Source of the DNA: Rathayibacter agropyri
Lineage (GTDB): Bacteria > Actinomycetota > Actinomycetes > Actinomycetales > Microbacteriaceae
Assembly (NCBI RefSeq): GCF_013249015.1
Contig: NZ_JABRPL010000002.1
Span: 496,001-560,000, forward strand
DNA length: 64,000 nt
Direction of reading: 5' to 3'
Of this stretch, positions 24,526-24,642 are shown in pieces (position 1 is the first letter of the stretch; each line of letters opens with the position of its first letter). The position numbers and the translations under genes are program-made. The notes beneath the pieces were generated by a model. It saw only the letters and a program-made list of their open reading frames with translations. It did no database searches and was not told the origin of the DNA.

Positions 24526-24642
24526 ATGATACCCGAGATTCTCGAGAAGGAGGCTACCGTCGTGAGCCCGTACCAGAGCAGCAGCGGCCGGGTGTGCACA
24601 CTCACGACCAAGTGCGGCACGGCCATACGCGCCTGTCGCTGA
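24526..24642 (+). CDS. Lantibiotic precursor, actagardine/michiganin A type
   Basis: A 38-residue peptide too short for routine gene callers. The ATG at 24526 is preceded by AAAGGAAAGAAGGAA, a strong purine-rich ribosome-binding site. The leader is [17 protein letters not shown] and the core is [20 protein letters not shown] plus a final Arg. From memory, michiganin A of Clavibacter michiganensis has the core [20 protein letters not shown] plus Arg, and actagardine is close to it; 15 of 21 core positions agree. The Ser/Thr and Cys pattern needed for the N-terminal ring and the CTLT..C lipid II-binding type ring is kept. Differences are W5R, L6V, I11T, E12K, I16A and, most importantly, C18R, which removes one of four ring-forming cysteines. 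The leader is about 30 residues shorter than I recall for michiganin. Whether it is expressed and modified is unknown. Confidence 0.8.
   Translation: [38 protein letters not shown]

Follow-up and report, generated by a model that had tools for sequence, protein, structure and literature searches.

The closest described counterparts of the locus discussed here are the gene clusters of the michiganin A/actagardine group, i.e., mersacidin-like lantibiotics that bind lipid II. With the sequences that we take michiganin A and actagardine to have, the group and the locus share a core of the form SSG..C-T-L-T..C-G-T...A-C-R and a leader end VVSPY. In the michiganin/actagardine-type clusters of three genomes (G663, G570 and Sinomonas humi) lanA is followed by lanM, and a lanK-R-F-G-E series runs divergently from this pair, which is also the gene order at the locus. 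The available part of one study reports the michiganin cluster, at low frequency, outside the Clavibacter michiganensis clade (PMC11521342). A second phenomenon of relevance is the presence of functional immunity-system homologues in non-producers, referred to as orphan immunity or immune mimicry (PMC7912925, available part).

The locus is found in a 64-kb stretch of Rathayibacter agropyri DNA with a G+C content of 69% (the window is this whole stretch). Compared with the michiganin/actagardine group, its lanA is devoid of 30 leader codons, Cys18 and Glu12, and of lanM only the ends are present. As in orphan immunity, in the part of that account available (PMC7912925), it harbors LanFEG with their own regulators and no working production genes; it differs in that remains of lanA and lanM can still be seen at the locus and a sister cluster has stayed intact, which makes an origin through lost production directly legible, and in that the immunity is here a predicted one. 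It is highly probable that the locus represents a ruined class II lantibiotic cluster of the michiganin/actagardine type, in an ex-producer that has kept an orphan immunity, composed of LanFEG and a two-component system. Orphan lantibiotic immunity is already known, and the window locus is a clear case caught in the act; no description of a decayed michiganin-type cluster was found among the titles and abstract openings listed from a mostly non-subscription literature.

The precursor gene

The frame at 24526-24642 (plus strand) is open and encodes 38 amino acids exactly as first described, and the purine-rich stretch AAGGAAAGAAGGA is found just 5' of it. According to the original prediction, which was made from the sequence, this frame encodes a class II lantibiotic precursor close to michiganin A and actagardine, and the kinship stands. 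Residues 9-37 match NCBIfam NF000539 (plantaricin C family lantibiotic) with E 1.7e-4 and 22.0 bits, i.e., below the family cut-off of 29 bits, and intact relatives have a (V)SPYM-type leader end and a CTLTIECG...CACR core. Because three intact LanA relatives also reach 18.8-23.0 bits, all below the cut-off, a score in this range is normal for the group and is in itself no sign of lanA decay. Furthermore, positions 24558-24771 are 83% identical over 214 bp to the lanA-lanM junction of G663 (E 8e-60), and the resemblance is therefore not due to chance. A Pfam search with the 38-residue peptide at E 0.001 and a tblastn search of 72,556 plasmid records at E 10 gave no match, the string CTLTIEC did not occur in the literature searched, and a PDB search with G663 LanA returned one match at chance level (E 0.16).

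Judged by comparison with intact relatives, the frame is thus a real relative of the michiganin/actagardine-type class II precursors, and the same comparison indicates that it is a decayed lanA remnant rather than a working precursor. Relative to G663, 90 bp are absent between two near-identical 12-bp repeats, both encoding VVSP; in G663 these repeats, GTCGTGAGCCCG and GTCGTCAGCCCG, are located 90 bp apart, in frame, and are identical at 11 of 12 positions. The window has a single copy, GTCGTGAGCCCG, at 24559-24570 (plus strand), i.e., at the deletion junction, with TAC directly after it. The deletion is in frame and takes out 30 of the 46 residues that form the leader in G663 LanA, leaving a leader of 17 residues, to be compared with 46, 47, 48 and 44 residues in four intact relatives (the starts of which were inferred), and the conserved middle part of a full leader (PS(V/L)Q.(Q/R)ID..F-like) is absent. 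The codon that starts lanA in G663 reads ATA in the window, where the frame begins instead at an ATG located one codon further upstream. The arrangement of the repeats points to a repeat-mediated deletion. Three of the four intact leaders (L109:8167-8370, L110 near 9613-9783 and L001:7482-7691) carry a motif twice, as VSPxW and as (V/A)SPYM, with a spacing of about 30 residues, and the fourth, that of G037, has the diverged forms VPSW and VTPYM; this pairing of VSP motifs explains how the 90-bp deletion could arise, and it might represent a double recognition site for an enzyme.

In the core, changes at variable positions are accompanied by W5R, I11T, E12K and C18R, which hit positions that are identical in all four intact relatives. 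Three of the four core Cys (positions 7, 13, 18 and 20 of 21) remain, Cys18 being replaced by Arg, while all four are present in each of the intact relatives; Cys18 is presumably the partner of Thr10, as in the ring pattern that we take actagardine to have. The CTLTxEC motif reads CTLTTKC, i.e., without the Glu that is found in 4/4 intact relatives. In our reading of the conserved ring, Glu12 would correspond to Glu17 of mersacidin, which is reported to be essential for activity, and replacement of the equivalent Glu abolished the activity of haloduracin, while opening of the equivalent ring is survived by the activity of haloduracin and abolishes that of lacticin 3147 (PMC2706954, in the part available). 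None of Cys18 to Arg, Glu12 to Lys, the short leader or the missing LanM was mentioned in the original prediction. Of the residues that it had listed as shared with michiganin A, all but Ser1 agree with the intact relatives; at position 1 the four have Gly, Ala, Ala and Arg.

The 21 core codons differ from those of G663 by eight nonsynonymous changes and one synonymous change. If the core were constrained like the pooled immunity genes 2.6 nonsynonymous changes would be expected (P of eight or more = 0.005), and if it were neutral, 11.6 (P of eight or fewer = 0.18), i.e., the rate is compatible with neutrality and, with these small counts, fits it better than constraint. The nonsynonymous to synonymous ratio is 11:3 in lanA (36 codons) and 168:288 in the five immunity and regulatory genes pooled (Fisher P 0.003). 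Set against pairs of intact relatives, for which the counts are small and rounded, the core differs from the Sinomonas-G570 pair (P 0.003) and not significantly from the G663-G570 pair (P 0.13).

The synthetase gene and the plasmid-type DNA

To the right of lanA are found, in order, an open reading frame at 24653-25186, an MFS transporter gene, a Rossmann-like/DUF2520 gene (Pfam), a gene for a bPH_2 protein and FtsH. There is no LanM synthetase gene beside lanA; about 59 of 1061 codons (the length in G663) are left, i.e., the first ~13, MFRHEDALASAEA, at 24732-24771 (plus strand, aligned to the lanM start of G663), and the last ~46, at 25466-25640 (plus strand), where the stop codon at 25605-25607 is followed by 33 bp of downstream sequence and the DNA identity to G663 is 88%. 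A tblastn search of the whole 64-kb window with two intact LanM (G663 and Sinomonas humi) returned the C-terminal remnant, 25380-25604, alone (E limit 1).

Plasmid-type DNA appears to have partly replaced lanM. Within the former gene, at 24803-25186 (plus strand), plasmid matches identify a 3' fragment of a gene for an ATP/GTP-binding (DUF87-like) protein of conjugative plasmids. The frame at 24653-25186 has matches in 178 plasmid records, the best of them to residues 51-177, and 0/178 cover at least 80% of the query; profile searches with this frame found no family. As a gene of the cluster it is ruled out, being a composite frame in which the lanA-lanM spacer, the beginning of lanM and the ATPase fragment are joined. 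A 64-residue frame at 25183-25377 (plus strand, from the list of open reading frames) overlaps the ATPase stop by 4 nt, and in a Rathayibacter festucae plasmid the gene after the ATPase has the same length and overlap; a BLASTP comparison with that protein gave no alignment, leaving the 64-residue frame unsupported as the next plasmid gene.

Further to the right, at 25410-25467 (plus strand), 58 bp are a near-duplicate (53/58) of the 3' end of the DUF2520/Rossmann-like gene (27080-27772, minus strand). The two copies, at 25410-25467 and 27076-27133, form a direct repeat that flanks the lanM 3' remnant and the MFS gene and may be the footprint of an integration site or of recombination. In the window the MFS gene (25731-27034) has the lanM remnant on one side and the DUF2520-like gene on the other, and in G663 (L109:13258-14568) it is located between panC and lanE. 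The insert thus looks circularly permuted, which could reflect excision followed by re-insertion or, alternatively, a tandem duplication with later loss. As a cluster member the MFS gene (25765-26997) is unsupported, i.e., nothing matching it was found in the 19.5-21 kb that surround the Sinomonas and G570 clusters.

Immunity genes and intact relatives

To the left of lanA the minus strand holds K, R, F and two ABC-2 permease genes, followed by panC and lysS. The sensor histidine kinase gene lanK (22967-24220, 417 residues) is open, as is lanR (22263-23051), which encodes a LuxR-type response regulator; 235 codons of lanR align with the frame in G663, and the listed TTG start is probably too early. 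LanF (21197-22096, 299 residues) is a lantibiotic-protection ABC ATPase with a TIGR03740 match of E 3e-73 and 246 bits, under the 310-bit cut-off. The permeases LanG (20424-21200) and LanE (19674-20420) both match PF12730, with a weak MutG-type match for the former and a MutE/EpiE-type match for the latter, both under the cut-off. All five genes are open and colinear with those in G663, and the proteins are 84-93% identical; intact LanF, LanE and LanG related to those of producers are found together with an absence of working production genes in the 64-kb window.

Compared with G663, and on small counts, dN/dS is 0.235 for lanE, 0.154 for lanG, 0.124 for lanF, 0.120 for lanR and 0.262 for lanK, i.e., near that of panC (0.195) and above that of lysS (0.069). 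These values average the time before and after production was lost, so that the purifying selection which they indicate is no proof of present function. The dS values of the five genes (0.255-0.335) are close to those of panC (0.271) and lysS (0.283), which places the cluster in the common ancestor with G663.

In G663 an intact cluster occupies the same site, with a 67-residue LanA, a 1061-residue LanM (TIGR03897 E 3e-189, with DUF4135 and LANC_like) and divergent lanK-R-F-G-E, and the DNA identity to the window is 91.0% over 16455-19568, 87.9% over 19620-24573 and 89.8% over 27077-31940. The Sinomonas humi contig harbors a complete cluster with LanA, a 1079-residue LanM and divergent K-R-F-G-E as in the window. 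Intact LanA was read, and LanM scored above its cut-off, in four genomes (G663, G570, Sinomonas humi and G037); LanA adjoins LanM in all four and is near LanFEG in three, and in the 16.7 kb around the pair in G037, where the contig ends, no close LanFEG or LanRK was found. G301, whose lysS was the best match in a sample of 396 genomes of the order, has the same site without the cluster, such that panC adjoins the DUF2520-like gene.

The Sinomonas LanA matched 2/398 genomes of the family of G301 (G570 and G663), and G663 LanA matched 2/396 genomes of the order (Sinomonas humi and G037); the two samples may overlap, and G301 is in both. Within its own genus the Sinomonas query matched 10 of 15 genomes at E 1, strongly in Sinomonas humi alone and at E 0.08-0.95 in the nine others. 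In the genus of G663, LanG and LanA were each found in one genome of 15, G663 each time. A scan for LanF yielded at least 597 stretches (594 confirmed), with Sinomonas humi first, at 76%, among the matches listed; 80 loci were kept, and synteny was compared in four of these (L001-L004). NF000539 matched five of eight genomes, none above the cut-off, and at the loose E limit of 10 it also matched 6 of 14 control genomes; in the follow-up, Sinomonas humi gave E 0.005 beside LanF. The best of these hits was in Actinomyces bovis, where a 51-residue frame, MSGINFFEELSEQELSENQNSFTGGAWTVPGTRTIGRVCTMSWECWGFLCG (L081, about 1483-1638, minus strand), matches NF000539 at E 5.1e-4 and 22.1 bits, under the cut-off, and looks like a different class II lantibiotic precursor, on another contig than the LanF of that species.

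LanG at E 1e-15 or better was found in four of the 398 family genomes (G663, G570, G542 and G721). G663 and G570 also harbor LanA and LanM; for G542 and G721 a search at E 0.001 gave no LanA, and neither genome contains a LanM. Stand-alone LanRK-LanFEG cassettes are found in G542 (L119 6673-11053) and in a Micropruina metagenome-assembled genome (L002), where LanF is 70-72% and LanG 57-61% identical to those of the window; in contrast, their kinases and regulators are distant (31-41% identity; in G542, kinase 34% and regulator 41%). Because of this distance, and because no LanA was found in G542, these cassettes are not clearly relics of producers, and that of G542 may be a separate resistance cassette.

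Fate of the locus

The original prediction of a functional lantibiotic precursor is not supported. That the frame encodes an active, so far unannotated relative of the michiganin A precursor from which an antibiotic is made is hardly credible, even though it is open, has a ribosome-binding site, adjoins immunity genes, matches NF000539 (E 1.7e-4) and has the leader end and the ring residues in common with intact relatives. The leader is cut from 46 to 17 residues, Cys18 and Glu12 are gone, a Glu at the equivalent position is reportedly needed in mersacidin (Glu17) and haloduracin (PMC2706954, available part), and the window holds no LanM beyond its two ends. The open frame, the good ribosome-binding site and the in-frame nature of the deletion (one in three by chance) count against reading the locus as a wreck. 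Another reading is that the truncated peptide was kept for a different role, e.g., to induce LanK in its linear form or to be modified by a LanM encoded elsewhere. The frame stayed open after the deletion, with the upstream start replacing the lost ATG (now ATA); yet the core changes at a rate compatible with neutrality, and no second short form was seen among the family and order samples (2/398 and 2/396 genomes match intact LanA and none a short one, although the score of a short one might not reach the limit), which makes such a role very improbable. Equally improbable is the more specific case in which the shortened peptide has outlived lanM and, small and linear or else modified in trans, tunes LanK-LanFEG as a signal or a decoy; if true, this re-purposed precursor would be an intermediate between an antibiotic producer and an immune cheater.

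A more serious alternative, which we nevertheless consider unlikely, is that the whole locus is dead and that the immunity and regulatory genes are also decaying, just unbroken so far. The averaging of the immunity-gene dN/dS over the whole branch leaves room for this possibility, and lanK has the highest value of the five (0.26), but five genes (~4.4 kb) without a frameshift or stop at dS ~0.27, while lanA and lanM are both broken, argue against it.

The favored explanation remains that of a wrecked cluster with retained immunity, and the sequence suggests that the bacterium has probably stopped making the lantibiotic and kept resistance to it. In the ancestor the plus strand carried lanA and lanM, with divergent lanK-R-F-G-E, as is still the case in G663. 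In the window lineage, lanA has lost 90 bp, probably by deletion between the 12-bp direct repeats in the leader, and its core has accumulated disabling changes; nearly all of lanM has disappeared, and plasmid-type DNA would have taken part of its place. With lanA broken and lanM lost, no lantibiotic would be produced from this locus alone, although a LanM encoded elsewhere in the genome might act in trans. LanK may still sense a related lipid-II-binding lantibiotic made by neighbors, upon which LanR would switch on lanFGE and LanFEG would clear the peptide from the membrane, such that the strain would be an immune non-producer. The mrsR2/mrsK2 system is said to induce mrsE, F and G (PMC2706954, in the part available), and by analogy we infer that LanK-LanR may still induce LanFEG and protect against michiganin-type peptides of neighbors.

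The locus adds no new antibiotic, and it is a warning that a short RiPP precursor which looks convincing on visual inspection can be the relic of a deletion. It also offers a readable case of a producer that probably turned into an immune non-producer, where both production genes are broken, the sister cluster is intact and the protection genes persist under constraint.
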